DNA of 64,000 nt from Nitrospirota bacterium (GTDB lineage: Bacteria > Nitrospinota_A > UBA7883 > JACRGQ01). The stretch is taken from positions 44,117 to 108,116 of the forward strand of contig JAJRYD010000029.1 of the NCBI GenBank assembly GCA_024275955.1. The letters run 5' to 3'. Shown in pieces: positions 27,824 to 45,730 of the stretch (within the stretch, counting starts at the first letter, position 1; each line of letters starts with the position of its first letter). The position numbers were made by a program, and so were the translations under genes. The notes below the pieces were generated by a model that ran no database searches, was not told where the DNA came from, and saw only the letters and a program-made list of their open reading frames with translations.

Positions 27824-27856
27824 ATAGTTTTAAGGGTTAATTTTTTGTAGGTTAAG

Positions 27857-27872
27857 CTGGTTAAGCAACCAG
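27857..27872. promoter_or_regulatory. Candidate operator palindrome upstream of ccoN
   Basis: CTGGTT-AAGC-AACCAG, a perfect 6-bp inverted repeat with a 4-base centre, 37 bases before the ccoN start and not followed by a T-run. Position between the Rrf2 gene and ccoN makes it a candidate binding site for that regulator. Confidence 0.4.
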
Positions 27873-27908
27873 TATAAAGTGCGAGTTTAATATAGCGGGG
27901 AGGGGACG

Positions 27909-29330: not shown

Positions 29331-29331
29331 G

Positions 29332-30000
29332 ATGAGTACGAATACCGAAAACGAAACCTTCCAACAAAAGCTGGAGAAGAATGTTGTTGCTCTGACACTG
29401 GTGCTGGCTCTTGTTCTGTCAATAGGCGGAATTGTTATGATAGTTCCTCTTTTTTATCTTGATAATACGCTTGAGAGCTCGGAAAAGTTTCCCGAGCTTG
29501 AAGGGGTACGACCATACACAGCATTGGAACTGGCGGGGCGGGATGTCTACCTGCGCGAAGGATGCTATCTTTGCCATTCTCAGATGATAAGGCCTTTTAG
29601 AGACGAGAAGGAGCGTTACGGCCATTATTCTTTGGCTGTCGAGTCTAAGTACGACCATCCACACCAATGGGGCTCTAAACGAACAGGCCCCGACCTTGCG
29701 AGGGTAGGCGGAAAATATTCCGATGAGTGGCATTACGAACACCTAGAAGACCCGAGGTCTGTCGTGCCGGAATCGGTAATGCCCAGGTACCGCTGGCTGA
29801 AGAAAGCAGAGGTAAATGGAGAGCAGATTAAGAGCAATATGAACGGGATGAAGATTATCGGTGTGCCGTATTCCGACAAAGATATAGAGAACGCCCCTAA
29901 CGATGTCAACGGCAAAACAGAGCTGGAAGCTCTTGTCGCGTATCTGCAGGTGCTTGGCACCATGATTAAGTTTGAAGAAGGGAAGGATTATCGTGACTAG
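29332..30000 (+). CDS. ccoO: cbb3-type oxidase monoheme cytochrome c subunit
   Basis: 222 residues. One N-terminal membrane anchor (residues 20-45) and a periplasmic cytochrome c domain with heme site C-Y-L-C-H followed by S-Q-M-I-R-P. The axial Met is probably in V-M-P-R-Y. CcoO takes electrons from CcoP to the CcoN hemes. Its last bases overlap the ccoQ start by 8. Confidence 0.96.
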
Positions 30001-30196
30001 TATTAAAGCATTTTTCCAAACCGACTTCCAAGCTATGACAGCGTCCGATTATGTTGGCCTTGCCATGACCATTATTGTATTTCTGCTGATGGCCGCGGCG
30101 TATCTATACGCATTTCATCCTAAAAACAGGGAAAAATTAAATTCTTACGGAGATATCCCTTTAAGAGATGATTTACACGAAAGGGGGGGGAAGTAA
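29993..30196 (+). CDS. ccoQ: cbb3-type oxidase small subunit CcoQ/FixQ
   Basis: 67 residues from GTG 29993, chosen because GGAAGGA precedes it; an earlier in-frame start would lie inside ccoO. One membrane helix ([13 protein letters not shown]) followed by the F-H-P-K-N-R-E-K segment usual in CcoQ. It stabilises the complex in known systems. ccoP starts on the next base. Confidence 0.9.
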
Positions 30197-31063
30197 ATGA
30201 GCGACATAAACGAAACTCCTGATGAAGCGGGCGATACCGGCCATGAGTGGGATGGAATACGCGAGCTGAAAAACCCTATCCCAAGATGGTGGATGGTCTC
30301 CTTTTATGCTTCTATTCTCTGGTTGGTGCTGTACCTCATTCTTTACCCCAGCATTCCGCTGATAACCGGAAATTCCGAGGGACTGCTGGGCTGGACTCAG
30401 GTAAAAGAGTATAAAGACGGCATGAAAGAGGTAGAAGCTATAAGGGCGCCTTTTGAAAAACGGATAAAAGAGCTTGATGTTGGCGGAATACTTAAAGACA
30501 CCGAGCTGTCCCAGTTTGCCATAGCCTCCTCTAAAGTTCTTTTTGGCGACCACTGCGCTCCGTGTCACGGGTCTGGCGGGCAGGGTACTTCCGGCCTCTA
30601 TCCAGTACTTGTGGATGACGACTGGCTCTACGGAGGCAAAATCGAAACTATAGTGGAAACAATCGCCGAAGGGCGCGAAGGTTCTATGCCGGGTCATAAA
30701 GATTCGCTCTCCCAAAAGGAGCTTGACGATGTTGTAAAGTTTGTCCAAAGCCTGAGTGCCGGAAGCTTTTACGCGCCTGGAAAGAAAGTATATCTTGGCG
30801 AAACAGCGGGTGAGGCAGAGTGTGCCGGCTGTCACGGCGAAGACGGCAAAGGCCTTACAGATTTCGGCTCTGCAAACCTTGCCGACGGCATATGGCGTTT
30901 TGATGGAACGCAGGAAGGGATAATGCACACGATTTTGTACGGGGTTAACGAAGACAACCCTGACACGAGGAAAGCAAAAATGCCTGCATTTGGCGAAAAA
31001 CTTATGCCGGAGCAGATTAAAAAGCTTGCCGTAAAGGTACACCTTCTCGGTGGCGGGCAGTAG
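30197..31063 (+). CDS. ccoP: cbb3-type oxidase diheme cytochrome c subunit
   Basis: 288 residues. The N-terminal part has the CcoP pattern W-D-G-I-R-E-L-K-N-P-I-P-R-W-W before one membrane helix. Two cytochrome c domains follow with C-A-P-C-H-G and C-A-G-C-H-G; Met ligands are likely in S-M-P-G-H and K-M-P-A-F-G. It receives electrons from soluble cytochrome c. Last gene of ccoNOQP. Confidence 0.97.
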   Translation: MSDINETPDEAGDTGHEWDGIRELKNPIPRWWMVSFYASILWLVLYLILYPSIPLITGNSEGLLGWTQVKEYKDGMKEVEAIRAPFEKRIKELDVGGILKDTELSQFAIASSKVLFGDHCAPCHGSGGQGTSGLYPVLVDDDWLYGGKIETIVETIAEGREGSMPGHKDSLSQKELDDVVKFVQSLSAGSFYAPGKKVYLGETAGEAECAGCHGEDGKGLTDFGSANLADGIWRFDGTQEGIMHTILYGVNEDNPDTRKAKMPAFGEKLMPEQIKKLAVKVHLLGGGQ

Positions 31064-31101
31064 AAGAGTAAATTTCGCTGAAATTTGTTTCTAGTTATCG
31101 T

Positions 31102-31139
31102 TATATTCCCAGCCGCTTTTAAGGCGGCTGGGGATATAC
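31102..31139. terminator. Strong hairpin between ccoP and ccoG
   Basis: CCCAGCCGC (31108-31116) pairs with GCGGCTGGG (31124-31132) around a 7-base loop, and the flanking TATAT/ATATA extends the stem past one wobble pair. There is no T-run on either strand, so it may reduce transcription into ccoG or protect the ccoP mRNA end rather than act as a classic terminator. Confidence 0.45.
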
Positions 31140-31303
31140 GAACTTTCTGCCGGTGTGGTGCCGGCTTTCATTAGAAAGGTGCAAAACATCTTTTTAATTG
31201 TTATTCTTAAGGTTTAGGCATCTCGATTTTCGGGAAATTATAAATCTAATTTCAAAAAGTCTGAATTTAGGCCGCTTTTAATCTGGCTGTGGGGAACAAA
31301 AGC

Positions 31304-32725
31304 TTGAGCGAAAATATAAAAGAGCAGGAGCTAGCAGAGCTTTATAGCGAATCTGAGTATTGGCATGTAAATCTTGGCGAAACGACAATACATGCCAAGA
31401 GAATTTCGGGCAAGTTTCGTAATATAAAGTGGATTATCGCCGCCGCTGTCTACCTTCCATGTTTCCTCGTGCCTTATATTAGGTGGGAGGGCAAGCAGGC
31501 GATACTTCTGGATATTCCGGGAAGAAAATTTAATTTTTTTAGTCTGCATATATGGCCTCAGGAAGTATGGATGCTGGCTCTTTTACTTATGCTCTTTTTT
31601 TTGGTCATGCATGCCGTTACCTCTGTGGCCGGAAGAGTCTTTTGCGGTTATTTTTGTTGGCAGACTGTCTGGGTAGACGTTTTTACATGGATAGAGGAAA
31701 AGTTAGAAGGCCCGCCGGTAGCTAGAGTAAAGCTCGACGCCGCTCCGCTCTCTTTCCATAAAGTAAAAATAAAAGCGGCTAAGCATACAATATTTCTTCT
31801 GCTTGGAGTTTTTACGGGCATTTCGTTTATATCCTACTTTATAGATGTTTACGATATGTGGGGGTACTATTTCACTCTATCCGGGCCTAAGGAGATATGG
31901 ATAACTATCCTCCCTTTTGCTATCGGCACATACCTTGGTGTCGCGTTCATGCGGGAGCAGATATGTTTTTGGCTTTGTCCATACGCCAGGATACAAGGCG
32001 TTATGAGTGATGCCGATACGATAATGCCTACCTACAATTTTAAGCGCGGGGAGCCAAGAGGCAAGATAAAACGCGAAAGCGGTGATGATGAAAAAAAGCT
32101 TGGAGACTGCATAGATTGTAGCCTTTGCGTGGCGGTATGCCCCACAGGTATAGATATCCGTCATGGACAGCAAGAGGGCTGTATTACCTGCGGGCTTTGC
32201 ATAGATGCCTGCAATTCAATAATGGAGAAGGTAGACCGCCCGAAAGAACTTATTACCTACATATCGTTAAGGGAACTGCTTGGACATAGGCACCGTCCTT
32301 TCTATAAAAGGGGCAGGGTGCTTTTATATTTCGCTATAATTTTATCGCTCTGTTCCGGAATTGTTTGGGGGCTTATAACTATAACGCCTCTTTCACTTAC
32401 CGTCATAAGGGAACGCCAGCCGCTTTTTGTCATGCTGAGCAACGGAGATATACAGAACAAGTACACGCTTAAAATTTTAAATAAATCAAATTCCGACATA
32501 GATGTCGCCGTAAAAGTTAGAGGGCTTAGAGGGGCGGTTCTTGAGTTAAGGCCGTCAAAGATTACGGTGCCTGCCGGAAAGCTTAAAAAGGTTACTGCTT
32601 TTGTCAGGGAACACCGCGAGAATATTGATGGCAAAAGCACGCTGACCTATTTTAAAGTGGAAAACATGAAAAATAAAAAAATGAGAGATAGTTACAAAAC
32701 AGTTTTTATGGGGCCAAAACGATGA
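31304..32725 (+). CDS. ccoG: cbb3 oxidase maturation ferredoxin CcoG/FixG (RdxA)
   Basis: 473 residues from TTG 31304, which has GGGGA eight bases upstream; GTG 31289 is the alternative. Several membrane helices, then two 4Fe-4S sites: C-I-D-C-S-L-C-V-A-V-C-P-T-G-I-D-I-R and C-I-T-C-G-L-C-I-D-A-C, and a C-terminal periplasmic Ig-like domain (FixG C-term). In studied bacteria it reduces Cu(II) for delivery to CcoN. It overlaps ccoH by ATGA. Confidence 0.95.
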   Translation: MSENIKEQELAELYSESEYWHVNLGETTIHAKRISGKFRNIKWIIAAAVYLPCFLVPYIRWEGKQAILLDIPGRKFNFFSLHIWPQEVWMLALLLMLFFLVMHAVTSVAGRVFCGYFCWQTVWVDVFTWIEEKLEGPPVARVKLDAAPLSFHKVKIKAAKHTIFLLLGVFTGISFISYFIDVYDMWGYYFTLSGPKEIWITILPFAIGTYLGVAFMREQICFWLCPYARIQGVMSDADTIMPTYNFKRGEPRGKIKRESGDDEKKLGDCIDCSLCVAVCPTGIDIRHGQQEGCITCGLCIDACNSIMEKVDRPKELITYISLRELLGHRHRPFYKRGRVLLYFAIILSLCSGIVWGLITITPLSLTVIRERQPLFVMLSNGDIQNKYTLKILNKSNSDIDVAVKVRGLRGAVLELRPSKITVPAGKLKKVTAFVREHRENIDGKSTLTYFKVENMKNKKMRDSYKTVFMGPKR

Positions 32726-33246
32726 CGGATAACGAGAAAGAAAAAAAGAGATGGCCGGAGGAAAAGTCGGACTTTAGGTCTCCTTGGGTTTGGGGGATAG
32801 GCACGCTGTTTTTACTTTTTATGTCTGTCGAAGTTTATATGGTCATAACCGCTATAGCGGCAAAACCAGACCTCGTAACGAACGATTACTACGAGCGCGG
32901 GCAAAGCTTTACCGAAAGGTCAAAGCTAAAAAGCGAAACTATCCAAAAGCTCGGCTGGGAGATGAATTTTACCGTCGGCGAGATAATAGTGGATGAGCCT
33001 GCACGCTTATCATTGTCTATCACTTCCAAAGGCGATGCCATAGATGTCGGTGAGGTCTTTTTGTTCGTCTACCGCCCTTCCAACGCTAAGAAAGATTTTA
33101 AAAGGCAGATGGAGAAAGCTACAGAAGGTAACTATCAGGCAGAATTGACATTTGACGAGCCGGGGTATTGGGATGTTATCGCGGTGGCCAGACGCGATGG
33201 AAAAGAGGCAGACGTGGCAAGACGTATATATGTAAAAAGCGATTAG
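32722..33246 (+). CDS. ccoH: FixH/CcoH family membrane protein
   Basis: 174 residues, one N-terminal membrane helix (W-G-I-G-T-L-F-L-L-F-M-S), then a periplasmic beta-domain. The K-P-D-L-V-T-N-D-Y-Y-E-R-G motif just after the helix is characteristic of FixH. It is needed for assembly of the cbb3 oxidase. Overlaps ccoG by four bases; ccoI starts nine bases downstream. Confidence 0.92.
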   Translation: MTDNEKEKKRWPEEKSDFRSPWVWGIGTLFLLFMSVEVYMVITAIAAKPDLVTNDYYERGQSFTERSKLKSETIQKLGWEMNFTVGEIIVDEPARLSLSITSKGDAIDVGEVFLFVYRPSNAKKDFKRQMEKATEGNYQAELTFDEPGYWDVIAVARRDGKEADVARRIYVKSD

Positions 33247-33255
33247 AATGAGCGG

Positions 33256-35706
33256 ATGAAGGAGTCAGCCTGCTACCATTGCGGTCTTCCTGTTCCTCAG
33301 TCGGGTACGGTTGCCGGCAGTATTAACGGCGTGGACAGGCTCTTTTGCTGTGAAGGATGCAAGTCTGTTTCATCTGTCATACACGAGGCTGGGCTGGAAG
33401 GCTTTTACGGCAGAGTTCCAGATGATATAAGCCTCGCACTTCCTTTACAGGCAACCGCTCAAGCCGATATATATGATATAGATGAGTTGCAGTCCGAATT
33501 TGCCGATACCAGCTCCGATATACGGGAGGTGACTCTCCTTGTCGAGGGGATGCACTGCGCCGCCTGTGTGTGGCTTATCGAGAAGGTTTTGGAAAAAGCA
33601 GAAGGAACCAAAGAGGGGAGGGTGAATCTTGCCGCTAAGAAGCTTCGTGTCAGGTGGGACAACAGCACAACGAAGCTTTCCGAAATAATCAAAAAGGTCG
33701 CCTCGGTTGGATACTCGTCTGTTCCATACACAGCTAGCGCGGCGATGGAGGAAGCTGAGAGTTCCAGGAGAAGTTCACTTTTTCGTATCGGCTTTTCAGG
33801 TTTTGCCGCCATGAATATGATGTGGATATCTATTGCATTGTGGACAGGTGCCGGCGATGGCGAATACCGTGATTTTTTCAGGATTATAGGGATGTTTCTC
33901 TCGTTCTTTACGCTTGCCTACTCCGGCTACCCGTTTTTTAAAAATTCTTTTTTGGGGCTAAAAAGCTTTTATCTGACTATGGACCTTCCGATAGTAATAG
34001 GCGCGCTTTCTGTATTTTTTTACTCTTCCTACATAACACTTCTTTCGCCGGATAGCGGTGAAGTTTATTTCGACACGGTGGTCGCGCTTATATTTATTAT
34101 CCTCATAGGCCGGCATCTTGAAACATCTTCCAGAGCTATGGCGATGGATGCCGCAGGACGGCTTATGCAACTCCAGCCAAAAGTTGCCACAGTTTTAAGA
34201 GATCGGCTGGAGTCAGCAGTACATGTAAAAACCGTAAAGAAAGGCGAAACTATTTTAATAAGGCCGGGCGAGCGTATAGCGCTTGATGCCGAAGTTATCA
34301 GCGGAGAGAGTGATGTCGATGAATCTATCGTAACCGGCGAGTCGAAAATGGTTAAAAAGTCTGTCGGCAGTCTGCTGGTGGCGGGAGCTATGAATGGAAA
34401 CGGGTCATTAACCGCAAAGGTTGTAAACGCTCTCCCCAACGGTACGCTTAGCAAAATGGCAAAGCTTATAGACGAAGCGCAAACCAGCAAAGCACCTACC
34501 GAGCGTATAGCGGAGAAGATCGTGCCGTGGTTTATAGCGGCAACCATCTCTGCATCGGTAGTTACTTTTTATCTATGGTATGGAGAAGGGCTAGAGACCG
34601 CGCTTTTGACCGCTGTTTCGGTGTTGATAATAACATGTCCGTGCGCTCTCGGTCTTGCCACTCCGATGGCTGTAACGGCTGGCATGAGGCTTGGCTCCCG
34701 TATAGGGGTGCTTGTAAAAAACGGAGCCGCGATAGAGATTTTGTCGACTGTCGACAGGTTTATATTCGATAAAACCGGAGCATTGACCGAAGGGAAAATG
34801 AGCGTAATAGAAATAAAAACCTTTAACGGTTTTTTAGAAAAGGAGCTTCTTTTAGTTTCGGCTTCTGTCGAATCGCATTCCGAACACAATATAGCGAAGG
34901 CTGTAGTCCGCGCCGCCAAAGCTGAAAATATCGGCATTCTTATATCCGATATAAAAAGTTTTAAGGCGGCTCAAGGGTACGGCGTTACGGCTGTCTTTGG
35001 TGAACGAAAGGTAGTTATAGGCTCTAGAGAATGGATGGATAAGCATGATGTTTTGACTGATGGAATGTATCTGACAGAATATTTTTCTAAAGGCCGAACG
35101 GTGGTTTTTTGCGCTATCGAAGGAAAACTGGCAGGGCTGTTTGTGCTGGGCGATAGACTAAGAGATGGCTCGCTGGAGGTGATTGATTTTTTACGCAAAG
35201 AACATCTAAAAATTTCTATCTTAACCGGCGATGTAAAAGAGGTGGCGGAGCATGTCGCAAGTTCGCTTCATCTTTCTGGTTCAAACGAGGTAGAGATAAA
35301 AAGCGGAATGAAACCAGAGGAGAAGTACTTCAAAGTGGCGCAGTATCAAGAGGAGGGGAATGAAAGGGTGGTTATGATAGGTGACGGGGTGAACGACGCT
35401 CCGGCACTGGTAAAGGCAGATGTAGGGATAGCTATTAGTTCGGGTGCGGACGTTTCGGTTCAAAGCGCGGATATGATTATCACCGGAGGATCGCTTCAAA
35501 AGCTTGTTAAAGCGGTAAAACTTTCCAGAGCTACCACTGCAGTGATAAGACAGAATATCGCGATTTCGCTGGTATATAATATCGTTTTGGTTCCTATGGC
35601 GGTTATGGGGCTTATCACCCCGGTGTTTGCCGCCATTATTATGCCTCTTAGCTCGCTGACCGTTATAGGCAACACATTCCGAGTGAGGAAAGAAAAGCTG
35701 TTATGA
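33256..35706 (+). CDS. ccoI: Copper P-type ATPase of the cbb3 operon, with altered catalytic motifs
   Basis: 816 residues. It supplies copper for the CuB centre in known cbb3 systems. N-terminal cysteine domain (C-Y-H-C-G-L-P-V-P, C-C-E-G-C), an HMA domain (G-M-H-C-A-A-C), membrane C-P-C in I-T-C-P-C-A-L-G, T-G-E-S actuator motif and G-D-G-V-N-D-A-P hinge are all normal. The phosphorylation motif reads D505-K-T-G-A509 instead of DKTGT, and the nucleotide-site motif S-E-H544-N545 instead of SEHP. The catalytic Asp and His are kept. Both are single-residue changes in near-invariant motifs, so activity may be reduced. Overlaps ccoS by ATGA. Confidence 0.94.
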   Translation: MKESACYHCGLPVPQSGTVAGSINGVDRLFCCEGCKSVSSVIHEAGLEGFYGRVPDDISLALPLQATAQADIYDIDELQSEFADTSSDIREVTLLVEGMHCAACVWLIEKVLEKAEGTKEGRVNLAAKKLRVRWDNSTTKLSEIIKKVASVGYSSVPYTASAAMEEAESSRRSSLFRIGFSGFAAMNMMWISIALWTGAGDGEYRDFFRIIGMFLSFFTLAYSGYPFFKNSFLGLKSFYLTMDLPIVIGALSVFFYSSYITLLSPDSGEVYFDTVVALIFIILIGRHLETSSRAMAMDAAGRLMQLQPKVATVLRDRLESAVHVKTVKKGETILIRPGERIALDAEVISGESDVDESIVTGESKMVKKSVGSLLVAGAMNGNGSLTAKVVNALPNGTLSKMAKLIDEAQTSKAPTERIAEKIVPWFIAATISASVVTFYLWYGEGLETALLTAVSVLIITCPCALGLATPMAVTAGMRLGSRIGVLVKNGAAIEILSTVDRFIFDKTGALTEGKMSVIEIKTFNGFLEKELLLVSASVESHSEHNIAKAVVRAAKAENIGILISDIKSFKAAQGYGVTAVFGERKVVIGSREWMDKHDVLTDGMYLTEYFSKGRTVVFCAIEGKLAGLFVLGDRLRDGSLEVIDFLRKEHLKISILTGDVKEVAEHVASSLHLSGSNEVEIKSGMKPEEKYFKVAQYQEEGNERVVMIGDGVNDAPALVKADVGIAISSGADVSVQSADMIITGGSLQKLVKAVKLSRATTAVIRQNIAISLVYNIVLVPMAVMGLITPVFAAIIMPLSSLTVIGNTFRVRKEKLL

Positions 35707-35894
35707 GTGTGATTTACTGGCTTGTGCCTATAATGATTCTGGTTGGCGGGGTGGCTGTGCTTATGCTTTTTTGGTCGGTTAAAAGCGGGCAGTATGACGA
35801 TTTGGAAGGCTCTTCAAACAGAATTTTGATGGACGATGACGACCCAAAACTTCCGTGGAACCAAAAGCAAAAAGAGGACGAAGAAGACAGATAG
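35703..35894 (+). CDS. ccoS: cbb3 oxidase maturation protein CcoS
   Basis: 63 residues: one membrane helix with the family-typical I-Y-W-L-V-P-I-M-I segment and W-S-V-K-S-G-Q-Y-D-D-L-E after it, and an acidic tail with D-D-D-D-P. CcoS is required for cofactor insertion into CcoN. Last gene of the cluster; its stop is one base from the end of the convergent next gene. Confidence 0.93.
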   Translation: MSVIYWLVPIMILVGGVAVLMLFWSVKSGQYDDLEGSSNRILMDDDDPKLPWNQKQKEDEEDR

Positions 35895-35895
35895 C

Positions 35896-36570
35896 CTACA
35901 TCTCCATCATAAAGCGGTCAAAGAGAGCTGTTGATTTTAAGATTAACAAAAGCCCGTACAAAGCCATTGCGGCCGCCGCTACTTTTATGAAGCGGTTGCG
36001 AACCGAAGGCTCTATCCGTTTTACCGTCCATGCCACCCCGAAAAGCCACGGCACAGTGCCAAGCCCGAAAAGAAACATTATGGCGACGCTGTGGAAGATG
36101 TCGGCTTTTTCGAGAGCTATAGCTAGGGCCGAGTAGACAAGCCCGCAGGGAAGGAGGCCGTTAAAAATTCCGAGCAGTATCCAGTAATAAATGGAGCCTT
36201 CCTTTTGCGTTCCTTTCAAGACGGATGATGGGATTTTTAAAAATTTTGAAAGGAAGCCGAATTTTTCCGGTATCCAGCCGCCTACTTGAATAGCCAAAAA
36301 GGTTATCGAAACCCCAGCTATAAGAGAGAGCATTTTTTGGCCGTTGGCAAAGAGGTTGGACTTTAGAAAAACAATGCCGATGGTGGTTGCCGCTATCCCG
36401 AGAAAAATATAGGTAGCGACCCTTGAAAGCTGATAGAGGGCTATACCGGGCCAAGATATACGGCCGCTCCCGATAGAAACTGACGCGACAATTCCGCCGC
36501 ACATTCCAACGCAGTGAAACCCGCCCAAAAAACCTAGCAAAAATGGTGGAACATACTCGTACAACGCCAT
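35896..36570 (-). CDS. DsbD/TauE-SafE-like membrane protein (UreH-type domain)
   Basis: 224 residues from ATG 36570 (the frame extends to TTG 36606, less likely). Six or so membrane helices. The first carries G-F-L-G-G-F-H-C-V-G-M-C-G-G, and the C-terminal half has G-L-L-P-C-G-L-V-Y: paired membrane cysteines of the DsbD-like sulfite-exporter/UreH group. Such genes commonly sit at the end of cbb3 clusters, where a role in copper or thiol handling for oxidase assembly is suspected. Convergent with ccoS, so not in the same transcript. Confidence 0.8.
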   Translation of the reverse strand: MALYEYVPPFLLGFLGGFHCVGMCGGIVASVSIGSGRISWPGIALYQLSRVATYIFLGIAATTIGIVFLKSNLFANGQKMLSLIAGVSITFLAIQVGGWIPEKFGFLSKFLKIPSSVLKGTQKEGSIYYWILLGIFNGLLPCGLVYSALAIALEKADIFHSVAIMFLFGLGTVPWLFGVAWTVKRIEPSVRNRFIKVAAAAMALYGLLLILKSTALFDRFMMEM

Positions 36571-36782
36571 AAAAAACCTAACGCTGGATAAATTAAAACT
36601 GTTCAAAACAGTCTTACATAGATAAGCGAAATAATGAAAGCCTGTTTAACGCTTGGTCGCGCGTCAATTTGAGTTTCAGTCGCTTCCCATCCTTTAACTT
36701 CGCTCGTAGAAGCTGATAGGGAGTGAAAAGCTTCGGAAACTTGCTTTTGTGAAAGAGGGGCTAAGGTGTGACGCCACTTGTT

Positions 36783-36913
36783 GAGACTGTTGTCAAAACC
36801 GATAAATTCGATTTTGCTATAGATTGCCAATCTCTAACGGCTCTATTTTCGAAGAAGTTAAAAGATGAACCTTTCCTTAAAATGCTCCAAAAGCTCTCTT
36901 GGAAATGGTCTCC
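36783..36913 (+). mobile_element. Miniature inverted-repeat element, family 1, copy B (degenerate)
   Basis: About 131 bp, left end GAGACTGTTGTC and right end GGTCTCC. The interior (GATTTTGCTATAGATTGCCA and following bases) aligns with copies A and C. The ends have drifted and no clean target duplication is visible. It lies directly upstream of ctaA and creates a spurious N-terminal extension of that reading frame. Confidence 0.7.
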
Positions 36914-36995
36914 TTTTAAGGTGTGGCACTTCTCCCGTATTTCCACTAAACTTAAGTTCTTTTTTAATTTTTCACTGGGGGAGAGGGGCTCTTTA

Positions 36996-37916
36996 ATGTC
37001 TGACACCATGTCGTCCAACAACAACATGTTTGCGCCAAAATTGCTTCTTGGCTCTACCATAGCTTTCACCTATGCGCTTTTAATAATGGGAAACCTTGTA
37101 ACTACAACAGGTTCTGGCCTCGATTGCCCAGACTGGCCTCTTTGCCACGGCTCCTTTAACCCTCCCAAACAGGTTGGGATATGGATAGAGTGGACACACA
37201 GGCTAATGGGCGGGATTGCCGGCATTCTGATAGCTGGTTCTATCATATATATGTTCAAGAAGGTTTCAGGAGCTGTCAAATTCCTTTTTAAGATGATTCT
37301 AGGTCTCTTGGTTACGGTTATCATTCTCGGCGGAGTGGTGGTTTTAATAGAGGCTCCTTTGCTCGATAACTTGGTGAGGATAGCGACTGTTTCGAGCCAC
37401 ATAATTATAGCGACGATTATCTTCACCAGCCTGATACTCGCCTTTAGGATGACATTTAAAAGCGGGGAGAGGACGGAAAAGGTTTATACCTTGTGGCTCT
37501 TCGGGCTTGTATCGTTTCAGGTTCTTTTGGGGATTCTCGTAAGGTATTCAAACTCTTCTCTCGCCTGTCCCGACTGGCCTCTATGCCATGGGGCTATCTT
37601 TCCTCCATCTATGATGCCGGAAGTTCTTTTGCATTACACTCACCGGCTTTTTGCCTACACCGTATTCGGGCTTACCCTCTGGAAGCTGGTCAGCACCGTA
37701 AGATCCGGTGGCGAAAATAAGCTTATACATTCCATAACCTTCGGGCTGGTGCTTATGCAGGCAAGCATAGGCGTCTTTATAGTGCTTACCAAAATGTTCC
37801 TGCCGTTTCTTATCGCTCATGGAGCGGGAGCTTTCCTCATACTTGGATGGGTTGCCTTTCAGGCGGCGCCTTATCTTGTACTACCCGGCGAAACGGCCGA
37901 GAGTCCGGCAGGCTGA
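36996..37916 (+). CDS. ctaA: Heme A synthase, CtaA/COX15 family
   Basis: 306 residues from ATG 36996, preceded by GGGGGAGAGGGG. The longer frame from 36768 is encoded by a mobile element and is rejected. Eight helices in two homologous halves, each with the C-P-D-W-P-L-C-H-G block (residues about 45 and 195) and the heme-ligand histidines in W-T-H-R-L and Y-T-H-R-L. It oxidises heme O to heme A. Stop overlaps the ctaB start. The adjacent cbb3 oxidase does not use heme A, so the product must serve another oxidase. Confidence 0.94.
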   Translation: MSDTMSSNNNMFAPKLLLGSTIAFTYALLIMGNLVTTTGSGLDCPDWPLCHGSFNPPKQVGIWIEWTHRLMGGIAGILIAGSIIYMFKKVSGAVKFLFKMILGLLVTVIILGGVVVLIEAPLLDNLVRIATVSSHIIIATIIFTSLILAFRMTFKSGERTEKVYTLWLFGLVSFQVLLGILVRYSNSSLACPDWPLCHGAIFPPSMMPEVLLHYTHRLFAYTVFGLTLWKLVSTVRSGGENKLIHSITFGLVLMQASIGVFIVLTKMFLPFLIAHGAGAFLILGWVAFQAAPYLVLPGETAESPAG

Positions 37917-38806
37917 TGAAAAGTTCTTCACTGTTCGCAGGCTTTCCTATGACGAAAAAGTCTTTGACAGCTCTTTTTATGCTACCAAAGCCGGGAATTG
38001 TGCTTCTTTCGCTGGTAGCAGGCTGGACAGGGGTTTATATAGGCTCTCACGGCCATCCCAGCCCTCATGTTGTTCTCTGGCTCTCTGTAGGTCTCGGTCT
38101 CGCTACTGCCGGAGCGGCGGTTATGAATAATGTTGTAGACAGAGATATAGATTCCGTAATGAAGAGGACGAAAGGGAGAACATTACCGTCCGGCGCTATA
38201 TCGCCAAGGAGTGCTTACTGGATAGGGGTTTTGATGATACTAAGCTCCCTTTTGGTCACTATGTACTACTTTGGAAGCTTGGTAACGATACTTACATGGA
38301 TTGCGATATTCATATATGTTGTTCTCTATTCAATTTACCTTAAACGCACCACCCCGATGGCGACTCATATAGGAGGCTTATCCGGCGCGTTGCCGCCTCT
38401 TATAGGCTACGCCGCCGCGAATGGAAGCCTAGATGTTAATGCCTACATACTTTTTGCCATCATCGTTGTGTGGCAACAGCCTCACTTCTGGGCGCTCGCC
38501 TTAAAGTATAAAGACGACTACGCGAGTGCCGGCGTTCCGATAATGCCGGTCTCGATGGGGGTAGAGGCAACGAAGGTCAGGCTGTTGTGGTGGACTGTCG
38601 GCCTTTTACCTATAGCAGTTTTGCCGTACTTTTCCGGAATGGCTGGCATATATTATCTGGTGGTCGCTGTACTGCTCTCTATTGTCTATATAGGGTTTAC
38701 TGTTCGTTTTGTAATGTCCAACAAAGATAAGGAGATGTTCCTTTTTTTCTTTTCGATTTTTTACCTTGGAGTTCTGTTCGGCACCATGGTTCTTGATATG
38801 ACATAA
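37916..38806 (+). CDS. ctaB: Protoheme IX farnesyltransferase (heme O synthase)
   Basis: 296 residues from ATG 37916 overlapping the ctaA stop (TGATG). Membrane prenyltransferase with the Asp-rich N-V-V-D-R-D-I-D and K-R-T-K-G-R-T-L-P-S-G signature near residue 75, and the second motif Y-K-D-D-Y-A-S-A-G-V-P. It attaches a farnesyl chain to heme B to make heme O, the substrate of CtaA. Confidence 0.96.
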   Translation: MKSSSLFAGFPMTKKSLTALFMLPKPGIVLLSLVAGWTGVYIGSHGHPSPHVVLWLSVGLGLATAGAAVMNNVVDRDIDSVMKRTKGRTLPSGAISPRSAYWIGVLMILSSLLVTMYYFGSLVTILTWIAIFIYVVLYSIYLKRTTPMATHIGGLSGALPPLIGYAAANGSLDVNAYILFAIIVVWQQPHFWALALKYKDDYASAGVPIMPVSMGVEATKVRLLWWTVGLLPIAVLPYFSGMAGIYYLVVAVLLSIVYIGFTVRFVMSNKDKEMFLFFFSIFYLGVLFGTMVLDMT

Positions 38807-38827
38807 ACTTTTTTTACAGGAAAAAAT

Positions 38828-40147
38828 ATGCGAAACAGTTATACAGGCAGGTGGTTTATTCTTTCGGTGCTTTCTCTTGGAATGGGGGGTGCGTTCGCGT
38901 TTCTTATAGGAATGAGCAGAATGCCGGGTGCCGCCGATTTTTTTCCGAGCAACTATTTTCAACGCGCGCTTGTTGGGCATGTCGATTTGGCGATACTGTG
39001 CTGGCTGATGATTTCGGCCATTGTCCTTTGGAGCTATCATCTAAAAGAAGCAGGCGCAAAGACAAGCTTTTGGGTAGGCTCTGCCGGTGTTTTTATGATT
39101 GCCGCGGCGGCACTGCCTGGAAGCGGAGAAGCTGTTCTTAATAACTATGTCCCTACAATAGTAAGCCCGCTCTTTTTTACGGGGCTTATGCTCTTCTTTG
39201 TCGCTTTTAGCGTAAATGTTTTCGGCTATCTAAAATATGTAAGGAGTGGTTTTCGTTCGGAAAGCATGGTCTACGACGCTATCTCCGTCTCACTTGTAAT
39301 ATCTCTGGTTATGATATTTTCTGTCGTAATATCGTTTGCCCTTCTTTGGTCAGATAGTTCCAATACGCAAGTTTACTTCGAAAAGATTTTCTGGACACCG
39401 GGTCATATTCAGCAGGTTCTCAACGGTGCTATGCTCATAATCGTTTGGTACGCGCTTCTTGGCAAAACTATAGAAAACGAGCCAGAATTTCCAAACTTTC
39501 TCAAAGTGGCAAACAAGATGCTTATACTCTCGACGATAACGATGCTGGGTATGCTGTTTTTGATGGATCCGCTTGATAGGGCCTCTAGGATAGGTTCTGA
39601 AGTTATATACGCGATAGGGCTTGGCATACCGCTTTTTATGCATATATGGAATATCCTAAAGCAATATAAGTTTGATAAATCGAAACCGGCATCGGTATCA
39701 CTCTTAATCTCGATAATCATCTATCTCTTCGGTATTTTTATAGCCTACGGCGGCTTTGGAAACGACACAAGGGTACCGGCCCACTACCACGGAGCGGTAA
39801 CGGCATTGACGCTTGCTCTTATGGGCTTTGGGTATCATATGGTTAAAGAGTCGGGGGTGAAAATTTACTTCGAAAAGATAGCCCGCTCACAGCCGTATGT
39901 TTACGGGGTCGGCATGGTTATGTTTATAGCAGGTCTTTTCGTCTCCGGCCTTCATGGAGCGCCAAGAACAACACACGGAGTGGCATGGACAGACGACCCG
40001 ATTGTGCTAGGCGCGATGACACTGATGGGAGTAGGCACGTTGCTGGCCGTCGCCGGCGGTATAATGTTCGTATTTTATATCGGTATAACGGTCATAAAGG
40101 AAAAAAGAGCAATGAGTGACAACGGCAATATGCCAAAGCCGGAGTAA
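38828..40147 (+). CDS. Divergent heme-copper oxidase subunit I homologue lacking the CuB His pair
   Basis: 439 residues, about 12 helices. Alignment by eye to subunit I places His51 (L-V-G-H-V-D-L-A-I) at the low-spin heme ligand, His193 (P-G-H-I-Q-Q) at the helix VI CuB ligand, and His319/His321 (A-H-Y-H-G-A-V) at the two heme ligands of helix X. Where helix VII should carry His-His there is M-D-P-L-D (246-250). So both hemes can be bound, but CuB lacks two of three ligands. It lies after ctaA and ctaB and before an ABC exporter and a DUF420 gene, and no subunit II or III is near. Function unknown: a heme A-dependent reductase or electron carrier, or an assembly protein. Confidence 0.75.
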   Translation: MRNSYTGRWFILSVLSLGMGGAFAFLIGMSRMPGAADFFPSNYFQRALVGHVDLAILCWLMISAIVLWSYHLKEAGAKTSFWVGSAGVFMIAAAALPGSGEAVLNNYVPTIVSPLFFTGLMLFFVAFSVNVFGYLKYVRSGFRSESMVYDAISVSLVISLVMIFSVVISFALLWSDSSNTQVYFEKIFWTPGHIQQVLNGAMLIIVWYALLGKTIENEPEFPNFLKVANKMLILSTITMLGMLFLMDPLDRASRIGSEVIYAIGLGIPLFMHIWNILKQYKFDKSKPASVSLLISIIIYLFGIFIAYGGFGNDTRVPAHYHGAVTALTLALMGFGYHMVKESGVKIYFEKIARSQPYVYGVGMVMFIAGLFVSGLHGAPRTTHGVAWTDDPIVLGAMTLMGVGTLLAVAGGIMFVFYIGITVIKEKRAMSDNGNMPKPE

Positions 40148-40353
40148 ATCAGTTACAGAATGCCATCCGGCTAATGGCTGTTGTCTTCATCTGCCGTAGC
40201 ATCCTTTACTAGGCTAGATTGCGGCGGCTCCGGTTTTTGCTGTTTGTATTGCTATTGTTTAAATCGCTACCGCCGGCTTTTAGCAGATGATATGATTCCC
40301 CATACAAGAATTTTATTCGCACTGGTAACAAAAGGTTTGGAGAAGCGGAGTAG

Positions 40354-41298
40354 ATGGATGCTGTTCGTATAAGCGGGTTGCGCCACAGCTATCCAAAGAC
40401 AGATACCGAGGTTCTAAAAGGGATATCTCTTTCCGTGCCGGAACGGTTGATTTTTGGGTTTCTTGGCCCCAACGGCTCGGGCAAGACAACACTCTTTAAA
40501 ATTCTTTCCACGCTTTTTGTTTCTACCTCTGGTTCGGTCGAAGTTTTTGGTATTAATACCAGCAGGAATCCTTACGAAGCCCGCAAGCTTATAGGAACGG
40601 TTTTCCAGTTTCCAAGTATAGATTTAAAGCTGACGGTAGATGAAAACCTCCGGCACCACGGTCATCTTTACGGCATGAGAGGCGAAGAGCTTAACTCACG
40701 AATAGATGAGCAGGTAGAGCGGTTCGGGCTTTTGGAAAAGCGGGCTGAATTTACCGGAAAACTTTCCGGTGGACAGCGTAGACGGGTAGAGCTTGCTAAG
40801 GGGATGATACATTCTCCAAAGCTTCTTATTATGGACGAGCCGTCCACAGGGCTGGACCCAAGCGCGCGCCTCTCTTTGTGGGAGACACTTTGCGAATTGA
40901 AAGAGAGTAGCGGCGTAACAATTCTGCTTACCACGCACCTTATAACCGAGGCAGAAAAGTGCGACCGTCTTGCCATTCTTAACAAAGGGGAGATAATCGC
41001 CAGCGGTTCGCCCAAAAAGCTTAAAGGCGAGATAGGCGGGGATATCTTGACAGTCTCCAGTCATTCGCCGTTAGAGTTCATAAGCAGGTATAAAGAAAAG
41101 TACGGTGGTAATCCGGTTCAGCTTAACGGGAAGGTAAGAGTGGAGCATGAAAACGGATACCGCCTAGTACCGGAACTTGTAGATGCTTTTCCTGACCTTG
41201 TCGATAGCATCACCTATGGCAAACCTACCTTAGAAGATATTTTTGCGCTCCGTACCGGACGTTCTTTCTGGAGCGGCGGGGCAGATAAAAATGAGTAA
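40354..41298 (+). CDS. ABC transporter ATP-binding protein (DrrA/NodI/CcmA type)
   Basis: 314 residues. Walker A G-P-N-G-S-G-K-T-T, Q-loop V-F-Q-F-P, signature L-S-G-G-Q-R-R-R, Walker B L-L-I-M-D-E-P-S, His switch T-T-H-L. A C-terminal extension of about 80 residues is typical of exporters of the ABC-2 type. Forms a pair with the following permease (8-base overlap). Context suggests export or membrane insertion of something needed by the heme A module. Confidence 0.92.
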   Translation: MDAVRISGLRHSYPKTDTEVLKGISLSVPERLIFGFLGPNGSGKTTLFKILSTLFVSTSGSVEVFGINTSRNPYEARKLIGTVFQFPSIDLKLTVDENLRHHGHLYGMRGEELNSRIDEQVERFGLLEKRAEFTGKLSGGQRRRVELAKGMIHSPKLLIMDEPSTGLDPSARLSLWETLCELKESSGVTILLTTHLITEAEKCDRLAILNKGEIIASGSPKKLKGEIGGDILTVSSHSPLEFISRYKEKYGGNPVQLNGKVRVEHENGYRLVPELVDAFPDLVDSITYGKPTLEDIFALRTGRSFWSGGADKNE

Positions 41299-42067
41299 CC
41301 AGCTTCTCGGCATAGCCACGCTTTGGCAAAGGGAGATGGTTCGCTTCTACAGAGACAAAAGTAGGGTTATAGGCGGGCTTGTTCCGCCGGTTATTTTTTG
41401 GGTTTTTATCGGTTCCGGTTTTAGCGGTTCGTTTCGTGTAGGCACAGGGGATGGTATGAACTATATGGTCTACTTTTTCCCAGGTATCATTACGCTTATA
41501 TTTTTGTTTACGTCGGTTTTTTCCAACATGTCTATAATAGAGGACAAAGTGCAAGGGTTTATGCAGTCGGTACTTGTAGCTCCGGTTCCAAGGTATGTGA
41601 TAGTTGTCGGCAAGGTGTTTGGCAGTACTACGCTTGCGTTCATACAGGCGTTGCCGTTTTTGGTTATAGGATATTTTGCCGGAATAAACTTTCGGGCGGA
41701 AATGCTTTTCGAGATGGTCATAATCCTTTTTAGCATCGCGTTTGTTCTCTCATCTATCGGTTTTATCGTTGCGTGGGTTCTCGATAGTTCGCAAGGGTTT
41801 CACGCTATTATGAATATGTTTCTGATGCCTATGTGGCTTTTGTCCGGCGCACTTTTCCCATTGGAAAACCTGCCGGTATGGCTTGAATGGATGGTAAAGG
41901 TAAACCCGCTTACATACGCTGTTGCCGCGCTACAGCGTGTTATTTTCGACCCGGGCCTCATCACCACTCTGCCGACGATGCGGCAATGTTATATTGTAAT
42001 ATTCGTTTACTGTGCCGTTTGCTTTCTTGGCGCGCTTTTTGTGGCAAATAGAGGAAACAATAGATGA
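41291..42067 (+). CDS. ABC-2 type transporter permease
   Basis: 258 residues from ATG 41291 (an earlier start at 41243 would be deep inside the ATPase gene). Six membrane helices; I-E-D-K-V-Q-G-F-M-Q-S-V-L-V-A-P and the W-L-L-S-G-A-L-F-P-L-E-N-L-P block are characteristic of the ABC-2 family. Partner of the preceding ATPase; its stop overlaps the DUF420 start (ATGA). Confidence 0.92.
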   Translation: MSNQLLGIATLWQREMVRFYRDKSRVIGGLVPPVIFWVFIGSGFSGSFRVGTGDGMNYMVYFFPGIITLIFLFTSVFSNMSIIEDKVQGFMQSVLVAPVPRYVIVVGKVFGSTTLAFIQALPFLVIGYFAGINFRAEMLFEMVIILFSIAFVLSSIGFIVAWVLDSSQGFHAIMNMFLMPMWLLSGALFPLENLPVWLEWMVKVNPLTYAVAALQRVIFDPGLITTLPTMRQCYIVIFVYCAVCFLGALFVANRGNNR

Positions 42068-42504
42068 TAGATATAAGTATCCTGCCCCATTTTCAGGCTT
42101 TGATGAACAGCACGACAGTCTGCCTTATGCTTATAGCGTTTTATTTTATAAAACAAGATAAGGAAAAGAACAAAAAAAAACATATGTGGTTTATGCTTTC
42201 AGCGCTCTTTACCTCTATGCTTTTTCTTATCTCCTATACCATTCACCATAAATACGCAGGGCTCACAAAGTTCAGCGAAGATGGTCTTGTTAGGTATTTT
42301 TATCTTACATTGCTTCTTGTCCATACTGTTGTCTCTTTTGTGCTTTTGCCGATGGTACTGCTTATACTTTACAGAGCGTTCAAAGGCGACTTTAAGCGTC
42401 ATGGAAAACTTGCGAAGTGGACATTGCCGACATGGCTTTTCGTCTCGGCTTCCGGCGTTATAATATACACCATGCTGTATCATCTATATCCGCCGTCCGG
42501 CTAA
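42064..42504 (+). CDS. DUF420/CtaM-like membrane protein
   Basis: 146 residues, four membrane helices. Histidines in L-P-H-F-Q-A-L-M-N, Y-T-I-H-H-K and L-L-V-H-T-V-V-S are at the positions conserved in DUF420. The family includes CtaM of Staphylococcus aureus, needed for heme A-type oxidase activity. Its presence here supports reading this operon as a heme A oxidase module. Confidence 0.85.
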   Translation: MIDISILPHFQALMNSTTVCLMLIAFYFIKQDKEKNKKKHMWFMLSALFTSMLFLISYTIHHKYAGLTKFSEDGLVRYFYLTLLLVHTVVSFVLLPMVLLILYRAFKGDFKRHGKLAKWTLPTWLFVSASGVIIYTMLYHLYPPSG

Positions 42505-42508
42505 GAAG

Positions 42509-43873
42509 ATGAAAAGATACCACCTTGTTACCTTCGGGTGCCAGATGAACAAGTACGACTCTCAGAGGATGGAAGGAGTGCTTGCGTCTAACGGCATGCG
42601 GCAGGTAGAAGAGGCGGAGAACGCCGACGTTATCATTCTCAACACATGCTCAGTAAGAGAAAAGGCGGAGAATAAAGTTTTTTCTATGATAGGCAGGCTG
42701 TCATCGCTGAAAAACGGAAACACAAAACCTCTTATCGGGCTTGGCGGCTGTATGGCGACATTTTGGAAAGAAAATATTTTCCAAAGAGCGCCGGCGCTCG
42801 ATTTCGCTTTCGGGCCGGACGCGCTGGAAAGGCTACCCTGCATTATCAATGAACGGATAGCGACAGGAAAGAAACAGCTAGATATAGGTTTTGGCAAAAA
42901 ACCGGCGTGGGACGGCCCTGAATCGTTCGTAAGGCCAAGCACTGTTACCGCATGGGTAGGGATAATGAAAGGGTGCGACAACCATTGCTCATACTGTGTG
43001 GTGCCTGGTACCAGAGGCTCAGAGGTAAGCCGCTCCGCCGATTCTATATTGAGTGAGGTAGAAGAACTCGCAAAGAAAGGTTTTAAAGAGGTTACTCTTA
43101 TAGGGCAGAATGTCAACTCGTATGACTGGCAGTCGGCAGGGGGGAGAATTTCTTTCCCATCGCTTTTGAAAAAAGTAGATAAGGTTACAGGTATCGAGCG
43201 GATAAGATTTATGAGTTCACACCCAAAAGACCTTACGGACGAGCTGATAGAGACCATCAGCGGTTCAAAAAAAATATGTTCTTCTATTCACCTGCCTGTC
43301 CAGTCCGGCTCGGACAGAATATTGAAAATGATGAACAGGAAATATAGCTCTGCCGAATATCTGGAAAAGGTCGGCAGGCTAAAGTCGGCTATAGAAGGGA
43401 TAACTATTTCCACAGATCTTATGGTAGGCTTTCCATCTGAGACGGAAGATGATTTTAAGCAGACTCTTGAGCTTATGGAGAAGGTTCGGTTTGACGCTCT
43501 GTACCTCTTTATCTATTCGAAGCGCGGCGGAACGCCGGCAGAGAAATATGATGGACATCTTTCGCGTGGGATAGCGCAAGAGAGATTTGAGATAGCTTAT
43601 TCACTGCATAAAAGATTGATTTTAGAGAAGAACGCCAAGTTTGTAGGAAGAACTGTTGAGGTGCTTTGCGAGGGGCAATATAATGGCAGTCCTGGAAGCG
43701 GTGATGATTCTTTCGGAGTGAATGGCCAGTTCGGAAGAAGTGATGGAAACCACGATGTCGCTTTTGTAGCTGATCGCGACATGACCGGCAGGTTTGTGCA
43801 GGTAGAGATTGCCGATTCCAGCGCGTTCAAGCTGAGGGGCATCGCCTCTAATGAAAGGGTTTTAGATGAGTGA
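42509..43873 (+). CDS. miaB: tRNA-2-methylthio-N6-dimethylallyladenosine synthase
   Basis: 454 residues. N-terminal domain with F-G-C-Q-M-N, the L-N-T-C-S-V-R cysteine and G-G-C-M-A (auxiliary 4Fe-4S cluster), radical-SAM domain with C-D-N-H-C-S-Y-C, and a C-terminal TRAM domain. It adds the methylthio group at A37 of tRNAs. The residues I-M-K-G-C-D-N-H-C-S-Y-C-V-V-P distinguish MiaB from MtaB/RimO. The stop overlaps the next gene by 8 bases. Confidence 0.96.
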   Translation: MKRYHLVTFGCQMNKYDSQRMEGVLASNGMRQVEEAENADVIILNTCSVREKAENKVFSMIGRLSSLKNGNTKPLIGLGGCMATFWKENIFQRAPALDFAFGPDALERLPCIINERIATGKKQLDIGFGKKPAWDGPESFVRPSTVTAWVGIMKGCDNHCSYCVVPGTRGSEVSRSADSILSEVEELAKKGFKEVTLIGQNVNSYDWQSAGGRISFPSLLKKVDKVTGIERIRFMSSHPKDLTDELIETISGSKKICSSIHLPVQSGSDRILKMMNRKYSSAEYLEKVGRLKSAIEGITISTDLMVGFPSETEDDFKQTLELMEKVRFDALYLFIYSKRGGTPAEKYDGHLSRGIAQERFEIAYSLHKRLILEKNAKFVGRTVEVLCEGQYNGSPGSGDDSFGVNGQFGRSDGNHDVAFVADRDMTGRFVQVEIADSSAFKLRGIASNERVLDE

Positions 43874-44369
43874 AGATACGATGATCGAGATGAGGGTTGA
43901 AGGGCTTGTACTCGACCCTGTTACAAATATGCCGATAATAATTCTTAAAGATATGGATGGGAAACGTTCGCTTCCTATATGGGTTGGGATATTCGAAGCG
44001 AATGCTATAGCGCTTGAGATGGAAAAGATAGAAACACCGCGCCCTATGACGCACGACCTTGTGAAAAATATTTTCGACGGTCTTGAAGCCGAGGTTAATT
44101 ACATTTGTGTGAGCGAACTTAAGGATAATACCTTTTACGCGGTTATCTCTGCCTCTATTAACGGTAAGAAGGTGGAGATAGATTCTAGGCCTTCAGACGC
44201 GATAGCTGTGGCATTGCGGCTCGACACAAAAATTCTCGTAGAAGAAAAAGTGCTGGCCGAAGCCAAAACTTTTGACGTTTCGGCAGAGGGAAGCCTAGGA
44301 GAAGACGACCAGTGGAAGAAGTGGCTCGACAACGTAAGACCGGAAGATTTTGGTAAGGACGACCAGTAG
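43866..44369 (+). CDS. Bifunctional nuclease-family protein (DUF151)
   Basis: 167 residues. The DUF151 core is clear: P-I-W-V-G-I-F-E-A-N-A-I-A, then the R-P-M-T-H-D-L block and R-P-S-D-A-I-A-V-A-L-R. Relatives have been reported with nuclease activity in plants; the bacterial role is not established. Overlaps miaB, a frequent pairing in Deltaproteobacteria-like genomes. Confidence 0.9.
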   Translation: MSEDTMIEMRVEGLVLDPVTNMPIIILKDMDGKRSLPIWVGIFEANAIALEMEKIETPRPMTHDLVKNIFDGLEAEVNYICVSELKDNTFYAVISASINGKKVEIDSRPSDAIAVALRLDTKILVEEKVLAEAKTFDVSAEGSLGEDDQWKKWLDNVRPEDFGKDDQ

Positions 44370-44600
44370 CAAACAAAATTAATCACTTCGAGGGAAAGCT
44401 TTTACCCTATTCTCTATGGTTCGTTATTGCTATAGCGGTTTGGAATTATCTAAAGAGCATATCCTTGACCGCAAGCTTGTAAAAAGCGGCAGGCAACGCT
44501 TGTGCCGGGGGGGATGGTACGGCTGATTTAAAAGCATCCAGATGCTGACTAACTCTTGGGGGAGATGCCTTTGCCAACTGACACGACCGAACCAAAACAA

Positions 44601-44728
44601 GGGGCTGTTGCCGAATGGCATAAACTTGATTTTGCTGTAAATCGCCAATCTCTAAAGCCTCTGTTTTTACGAAGTTAGAAGATGAGCTTTCCTTTAAAAC
44701 GCTTAAAAACTATTTTGGAAACAGTCCC
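44601..44728 (+). mobile_element. Miniature inverted-repeat element, family 1, copy C
   Basis: 128 bp from GGGGCTGTTGCCGAA to AAACAGTCCC, colinear with copy B and the reverse of copy A. AACAA lies on both sides (44596-44600 and 44729-44733), a probable 5-bp target duplication. No coding capacity. Confidence 0.75.
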
Positions 44729-44920
44729 AACAAAAGACCACAGCCTTAGATTTACAATACCTCTTCGTCTTTCTAAAATGATTGCCAGAACATAAAGCTA
44801 CGGCAGTAAGCGGCAAAGCGGTATTCACTATCTTTCTTAATCACCTGCAACACTTCAAGGAAATTGGGCGAAAAACCGATAAGAAAGCTACGGTACTTCT
44901 CTAGCTTGGTTTAAAAAGTA

Positions 44921-44948
44921 TTGAAATTTCAAAGGTTTAGTTTATAAT
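44921..44948 (+). promoter_or_regulatory. Sigma-70 promoter of the polysaccharide operon
   Basis: TTGAAA at 44921-44926, a 16-base spacer, TATAAT at 44943-44948. The first gene starts 18 bases downstream. Confidence 0.65.
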
Positions 44949-44965
44949 CTTCATTAAAGGGATTT

Positions 44966-45730
44966 ATGGTTAGCAAGGGTAGCAGTAGGGCGGGGTTTGC
45001 GCTCGCACTTTTTCTTTTTGGGGCGGGCTATCTTTTTTGGATGGAAAGTGCGCAGATTCATCTTAGGCTTGGAATCAAGCTCAACAAAGAAAGCCACCCA
45101 GCGGCGGTTCGTATCCTAAGGGGTGGCATCGCCAAAGATTCCAGCAACTACATGCTCCATCATTATCTAGCCAAGGCACTTTACGCGGAGGCCTTTAGAG
45201 AGCAGGCCCAAGGTGTCAAAAGTTCTATCATGCTTATTGAAGCAAAGAAAGAGCTGTACGACGCGCATACCTTGCGGTTTGATAGTTTTAATTACCTACT
45301 GCGGGCATCAATCTATGAGGCCGAAGGTGATTTGGACAGATACCTTACCGACCTTAACTTAAGCTTTTTTTTCTCTCAAAATCCCAAAGAGCTTAAAAGG
45401 CTGTTAAGGCTCAAGGGCCGGCAGACGGCACTGTCTGAAAAGCTTCTTAAAGGCGGCTCCGTTACAGCCGCGCTTATCGTAGCGTTCAATCATATTTCCA
45501 GATACAAACCATTCTGGAACCCAGACACCGCGGGAACTCTTTTAAAAGATTTTTTTCTTTCCATCCCTCCAGCGCTCTGGCTGGAAGAAGCAGGCCCAAA
45601 AGAGCCGCAAAAAAGAAAAGAGCTTTTAAGAGATATTTTTAAAAACCTTGATGCGAACGAAAAGAAAGATGTTCTCAAGATTTTTAGTTCGGCAGGGTTT
45701 GGTTTTTTGTCGGAGTTTTTGAGCAAATGA
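44966..45730 (+). CDS. Membrane-anchored TPR-like protein of the polysaccharide operon
   Basis: 254 residues. One N-terminal membrane helix (F-A-L-A-L-F-L-F-G-A-G-Y-L-F-W), then a helical domain with weak TPR character (A-A-V-R-I-L-R-G-G-I-A, then Y-M-L-H-H-Y-L-A-K-A-L-Y). Such proteins often accompany O-antigen ligase/polymerase genes. Its stop overlaps the next start (ATGA). No specific function can be named. Confidence 0.6.
   Translation: MVSKGSSRAGFALALFLFGAGYLFWMESAQIHLRLGIKLNKESHPAAVRILRGGIAKDSSNYMLHHYLAKALYAEAFREQAQGVKSSIMLIEAKKELYDAHTLRFDSFNYLLRASIYEAEGDLDRYLTDLNLSFFFSQNPKELKRLLRLKGRQTALSEKLLKGGSVTAALIVAFNHISRYKPFWNPDTAGTLLKDFFLSIPPALWLEEAGPKEPQKRKELLRDIFKNLDANEKKDVLKIFSSAGFGFLSEFLSK

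Follow-up and report, generated by a model that had tools for sequence, protein, structure and literature searches.

The evolution of heme A synthase has been described (PMC8239418, PMC12808453), and the route by which heme A passes from CtaA to subunit I of the oxidase is an open question (PMC9145763). Surf1 binds heme A, and CtaM, described in PMC4958251, acts late in oxidase assembly (both PMC9145763). In Acetobacter, a COX1-like protein that lacks all metal ligands is kept beside ctaB, and stabilisation of CtaB has been put forward as its role (PMC10715153). A further described relative of the oxidases is sNOR (PMC6967387), and NO reduction has been proposed for the sNOR-like branch.

In the window, by which we mean the whole stretch of 64,000 nucleotides that was analysed, a homologue of oxidase subunit I, here called COX1L, is encoded together with the genes for heme A synthesis. 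The nearest clade is formed by subunit I of the B-type oxidases and sNOR (NorSY), which have in common with COX1L the GHxxQ motif in helix VI, W189, the heme ligands and the P-R motif. In COX1L, however, the His-His pair and the Y-G-T-E-Q loop segment are gone, no CuA subunit accompanies the protein, and E185 stands where the B-type proteins have Arg. The Thermus ba3 oxidase has the same fold, at about 16% identity, but contains CuB and CuA, of which COX1L has neither. Subunit I of the aa3 oxidases (CtaD) also has the same fold (VIA Z ~31), and its gene lies near COX1L in several relatives, but it is far from COX1L in the tree, contains CuB and partners with subunits II and III. The Acetobacter protein is likewise a non-catalytic subunit I homologue, encoded next to ctaB, with a proposed structural role; it is reported to lack all metal-binding residues, whereas COX1L keeps every heme ligand. 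A DUF420 gene is part of the COX1L cluster, but CtaM/DUF420 and Surf1 are other families, and COX1L itself is a subunit I homologue.

A subunit I homologue among heme A synthesis genes

The six-gene order reported in the earlier note, ctaA, ctaB, COX1L, ABC ATPase, ABC-2 permease and DUF420, was recovered with all of its open reading frames, followed by miaB, and no subunit II or III gene follows COX1L in the cluster, as that note had also stated (Table 1). A mechanical GTG start for ctaA at 36768 would exceed the length of the proteins in relatives. The ctaA, ctaB and COX1L genes are tightly packed, and 206 bp separate COX1L from the ABC ATPase gene, which occupies the same place in relatives L047, L049, L051, L052 and L054. 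The gap at this position is similar in L047, L051, L052 and L054 (approximately 220 to 320 bp), and the cluster may therefore form two transcription units. Terminator-like matches numbered 15 against 6.8 in shuffled sequences, which by themselves are not evidence, and an Rfam scan of positions 26000-45000 gave no match.

Table 1. Features of the COX1L cluster and the upstream cbb3 region, in positions of the window
Feature	Coordinates	Strand	Basis and remarks
ccoN (cbb3 oxidase)	27909-29330	+	TIGR00780, 659.6 bits; upstream of ctaA
ccoO	29332-30000	+	TIGR00781, 290.8 bits
ccoG	31289-32725	+	TIGR02745, 445.5 bits
Putative ccoH ORF	32722-33246		After ccoG; named from position alone
Copper P-type ATPase-like ORF	33256-35706		Motifs CPC and DKTG, by eye
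DsbD_2-family membrane protein	35896-36606	-	PF13386, E 1.5e-41; between cbb3 genes and ctaA
ctaA, heme A synthase	36996-37916	+	306 aa; PF02628, E 9e-32
ctaB, heme O synthase	37916-38806	+	296 aa; TIGR01473, 269 bits (cut-off 210)
COX1L, heme-copper oxidase subunit I homologue	38828-40147	+	439 aa; PF00115
ABC exporter ATPase	40354-41298	+	PF00005
ABC-2 type permease	41291-42067	+	PF01061, E 2e-34
DUF420 protein, CtaM family	42064-42504	+	PF04238, E 4e-35
miaB	from 42509		After DUF420

Just upstream of ccoN lies a gene for an Rrf2-family regulator (27191-27823), and L036 has a homologue of it close to its B-type oxidase genes. A secretin-like (PilQ/GspD) open reading frame (26046-27104) has a homologue that precedes ctaA in L175.

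Heme ligands, copper site and phylogenetic position

The only Pfam match of COX1L is a weak one to PF00115 (45.8 bits against a cut-off of 34.8) and no NCBIfam model matched, which places the protein outside the CtaM, Surf1, Cox11 and SCO families. Its AlphaFold2 model (pLDDT 86, pTM 0.89), from which cofactors are absent, aligns with oxidase subunits I at VIA-align Z values of ~29-32 across ~410 residues, and PF00115 and VIA agree on the 12-TM subunit I fold of the heme-copper oxidase superfamily over the whole length of the protein. The best Foldseek matches are the Thermus ba3 oxidase structures 3s8f and 1ehk (E 9e-8, TM ~0.75 by query). Sequence searches of the PDB with COX1L or its profile found no oxidase; the distance between COX1L and the oxidases is therefore large, even though the fold search did find them.

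To describe the metal sites we aligned the COX1L of the window and 82 further homologues with 44 oxidases, among them 30 B-type/sNOR-like and 13 aa3 sequences. The ligands of the low-spin and high-spin hemes in helices II and X (H51, H319 and H321) and the CuB-type ligand H193 on the distal side lie where the earlier note had put them, and all four are invariant in the 83 homologues, as are W189, G192, Q196 and Y320. E185 occurs in 81 of the 83, the P-R motif arginine R380 is invariant in the family, and K381 is near-invariant, with Thr in the window protein. At the helix VII columns of the CuB pair, none of the 83 homologues has His-His, which stands at the end of this helix in every one of the B-type/sNOR-like (30/30) and aa3 (13/13) sequences of the same alignment. 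The loss of the pair noted earlier thus holds for the whole family, but its site is M242-L243, in the last turn of the predicted helix VII (224-245) of the AlphaFold2 model, and not the MDPLD motif (246-250), which lies just after it and lines up with the V-D-P found after His-His in the B-type proteins.

No conserved metal ligand substitutes for the pair in the COX1L alignment: Tyr occupies position 243 in 54 of the 83 homologues and Leu does so in the window's subclade, D247 and D250 are not invariant, and the single His-His seen (in L125) sits on the helix VIII side and not at the CuB columns. Other histidines at CuB, which the earlier note had named as a way in which its reading might fail, gave no convincing candidate. 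H272, the sole further histidine of helix VIII, is kept in the window's family and not in the whole clade, and at 21 residues into the helix it would lie on the far side from the CuB pair. Also missing from the COX1L alignment are two further features of the B-type proteins, the Y-G-T-E-Q loop segment and H400/N401, in a region that we take to face subunit II in those proteins. By these residues, COX1L is a heme-copper-superfamily protein without a copper site; it would bind two hemes (A or O, perhaps B) and would be incapable of four-electron O2 reduction at a heme-copper centre.

Genome contigs searched with a profile yielded 576 confirmed relatives of COX1L, of which 80 were kept, from Nitrospinota, Nitrospirota, Aquificota, several classes of Pseudomonadota, Deltaproteobacteria/Desulfuromonadales, Rokubacteria and Methylomirabilota; the 83 aligned homologues span at least six phyla. 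In a quick IQ-TREE phylogeny of 89 proteins, with SH-aLRT as its only support measure, the 46 COX1L rows, two of them long-branched, form one clade (SH-aLRT 100), sister to and outside the B-type/sNOR-like clade (SH-aLRT 99), from which HMM scores also separate COX1L cleanly. The aa3, CcoN and NorB proteins are placed elsewhere, and COX1L groups with neither CcoN nor NorB. Given a single clade, the CuB pair was most simply lost once. A plasmid search returned one weak archaeal match only.

In the open-access literature we found no description of this clade or of a subunit I without CuB, apart from the Acetobacter protein, one query being swamped by unrelated matches; nor did we find there an account of COX1L as a known assembly factor, the other outcome that would have spoken against the earlier proposal. 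That proposal stands in so far as it describes a member of the heme-copper superfamily that has neither a copper site nor a subunit II, sits in a conserved gene order and has no description in the literature covered. The family is apparently both large and undescribed. A PF00115 match alone is not evidence of an O2 or NO reductase, and with COX1L present in hundreds of genomes, automated annotation may count too many terminal oxidases.

Users of heme A, distribution and gene neighbours

The earlier note had placed COX1L at the centre of the module as the likely only user of heme A, a claim that is probably wrong in the light of other genomes and contigs. In HMM searches of the window's genome (98.4% complete) neither COX2 nor COX3 was found, and the only PF00115 matches are ccoN, COX1L and a short 4-TM protein; however, for one B-type oxidase the absence is probably an assembly gap. 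A 4.9-kb contig of this genome, C26, begins with an open reading frame of ~41 residues that resembles subunit IIa, followed by SCO1, cytochrome b-FeS and c6 protein genes. In 10 of the 12 relatives checked, a small frame of this kind separates the B-type oxidase gene from SCO1, and the same gene order follows; none was found in L041 and L043, the two relatives with long gaps. Because C26 starts where such an operon should continue, we read the oxidase as missing from the assembly: its CuA and oxidase genes probably lie just off the contig edge, with a true deletion as the alternative. This contig weakens the case for COX1L as sole heme A client of the genome. The aa3 genes of relatives point the same way: immediately before ctaA, at the place taken in the window by the DsbD_2 and cbb3 genes, the sister genome G010 encodes an aa3 subunit I (L173), and aa3 genes lie upstream of ctaA in L051 and L052 and upstream of ctaB in L063. 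The family is also found with B-type/sNOR-like operons.

Several side observations concern these contigs. The protein of ~42 residues between the oxidase and SCO1 genes (L034-L045 and L053) has one hydrophobic stretch, is like subunit IIa of B-type oxidases and is easily missed by annotation. On C26, L180 (1125-2720) encodes a cytochrome b - 4Fe-4S - FlpD-like fusion, followed by the unnamed c6 family protein; this pair is conserved beside B-type/sNOR-like oxidase operons and often lies beside COX1L in Proteobacteria. A 311-aa protein of the window's genome (L003 1486-2421, contig C3) combines a short, weakly CcoN-like 4-TM region with a hybrid-cluster-protein-associated redox disulfide domain (TIGR03980).

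Of 24 genomes of the phylum, 22 had CtaA, 20 had COX2 and about 21 had COX1L, with G014 having a B-type match only; CtaA and COX1L are jointly missing from two (G003 and G017). Of 40 genomes found by way of their COX1L loci, 34 gave a CtaA match and 35 a COX2 match, several of the latter being frames of nitrous-oxide reductase size. Since CtaA went undetected in six of the 40, heme A is not always available to COX1L. In 41 genomes from the order of the Magnetococcales genome G055, PF00115 matches were classed by size and score, with low scorers confirmed as COX1L by HMM: 19 genomes have COX1L and an A/B oxidase, three COX1L alone, 13 an A/B oxidase alone and six neither, an association that is not significant in this order (Fisher p 0.26). 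As 13 of the 32 genomes with an A/B oxidase are without COX1L, it is not required wherever such an oxidase is built.

Within 4 kb of COX1L at 83 loci, the genes found were those for CtaB (36), SCO-type proteins (35), CtaA (28), cytochrome b-FeS (26), DUF420 (19), aa3 subunit I (9) and B-type subunit I (8). Operon-like arrangements return in lineages far apart from each other: the order is ctaA-ctaB-COX1L in Nitrospinota and Aquificota, and appears as ctaA-DUF420-COX1L in Alphaproteobacteria (Terasakiella/Methylocystaceae), as ctaA-SCO-COX1L in Gammaproteobacteria and as COX1L-ABC-ABC in Magnetococcales (L135) and the window's family; many homologues have no maturation gene nearby. Some homologues have a COX2 gene nearby, and these loci have a catalytic subunit I gene besides COX1L. 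Three Magnetococcales copies (L249, L250 and L251) carry an extra hydrophobic segment and then a C-terminal TPR domain (Pfam TPR match in L249). Genes for CcsB-like and ResB-like proteins lie directly upstream of this form in L249 (by HMM) and L250 (by BLAST); in L251 a ResB-like gene adjoins it, the CcsB-like gene not being kept in the non-overlapping ORF list. Longer open frames around other Magnetococcales copies are upstream read-through, and only the TPR forms resemble fusions.

Candidate roles

COX1L most likely helps to build heme proteins or carries electrons; that it is a new enzyme which uses oxygen is less likely. We tentatively prefer, at slightly less than an even chance, to read it as a copper-free, heme-binding accessory protein of oxidase or cytochrome biogenesis, because maturation genes dominate its neighbours, CtaM/DUF420 acts late in assembly and the TPR forms adjoin cytochrome c assembly genes; the c-type cytochrome that adjoins COX1L in Nitrospinaceae counts against this, because it fits a redox protein better, as do the A/B oxidases built without COX1L, the homologues without a maturation gene close by and the genomes in which CtaA went undetected. 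As an accessory protein, COX1L could, for example, hold newly made heme A or heme O on its way from CtaB/CtaA to the real subunit I, or, loaded with heme, take the place of subunit I while metals are inserted; its possible partners are DUF420/CtaM, SCO and, in the window's lineage, the ABC exporter. Its client in the window's genome may be the B-type oxidase probably missing from the assembly, and in the ancestor may have been an aa3 oxidase. Encoded with ctaA, ctaB, DUF420 and SCO, COX1L is a concrete candidate for the delivery of heme A to subunit I.

Close behind biogenesis, because of these c-type cytochrome partners, comes the possible but on balance unlikely role of a diheme membrane electron-transfer protein that would swap electrons with c-type cytochromes, and possibly also with quinol, with no O2 reduction. 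The invariance of all heme ligands and of the P-R motif arginine would fit such a carrier, as would the small c-type cytochrome gene that follows COX1L in Nitrospinaceae and overlaps its stop by 1-11 bp in five loci, the cytochrome b-FeS and cytochrome b-NAD(P)H-type genes that flank it in many Proteobacteria, the large multiheme cytochrome and NHL protein encoded near the Magnetococcales TPR form (L249), and the few genomes with COX1L in which A/B oxidases went undetected. However, genes for synthesis and maturation are commoner beside COX1L than those for electron carriers, and the cluster in the window has no cytochrome partner.

A further, improbable reading is that COX1L catalyses a redox reaction at a high-spin heme without copper, like an NO reductase, a peroxidase or an O2-binding protein, with H193, Q196 and E185 on the distal side. 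The conservation of these three residues would suit such a site, as would the sister relationship to the sNOR-like branch with its proposed NO reduction, but no conserved metal ligand stands in for the pair, with either Tyr or Leu at position 243 in many of the proteins and D247 and D250 not invariant. That the ctaA-ctaB-COX1L-DUF420 block of the window is a relic left by the loss of an aa3 oxidase is very improbable: the DsbD_2 and cbb3 genes that the window has in place of the aa3 gene found upstream of ctaA in G010, the Thr at position 381 and the slightly faster look of CtaB and DUF420 would agree with decay, but every open reading frame is intact, all invariant histidines are kept, a B-type oxidase probably remains in the genome, and COX1L has not diverged more quickly than its counterparts in relatives with aa3 (59.2% against 57.8-58.8% identity to G007, these being identities and not dN/dS).

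In Magnetococcales, the TPR forms of COX1L are part of a cluster of genes for an NHL protein, a multiheme cytochrome and ResB-like and CcsB-like proteins (L249 7242-14805, also L250 and L251), which may be a unit of its own for electron transfer or for the assembly of cytochromes.
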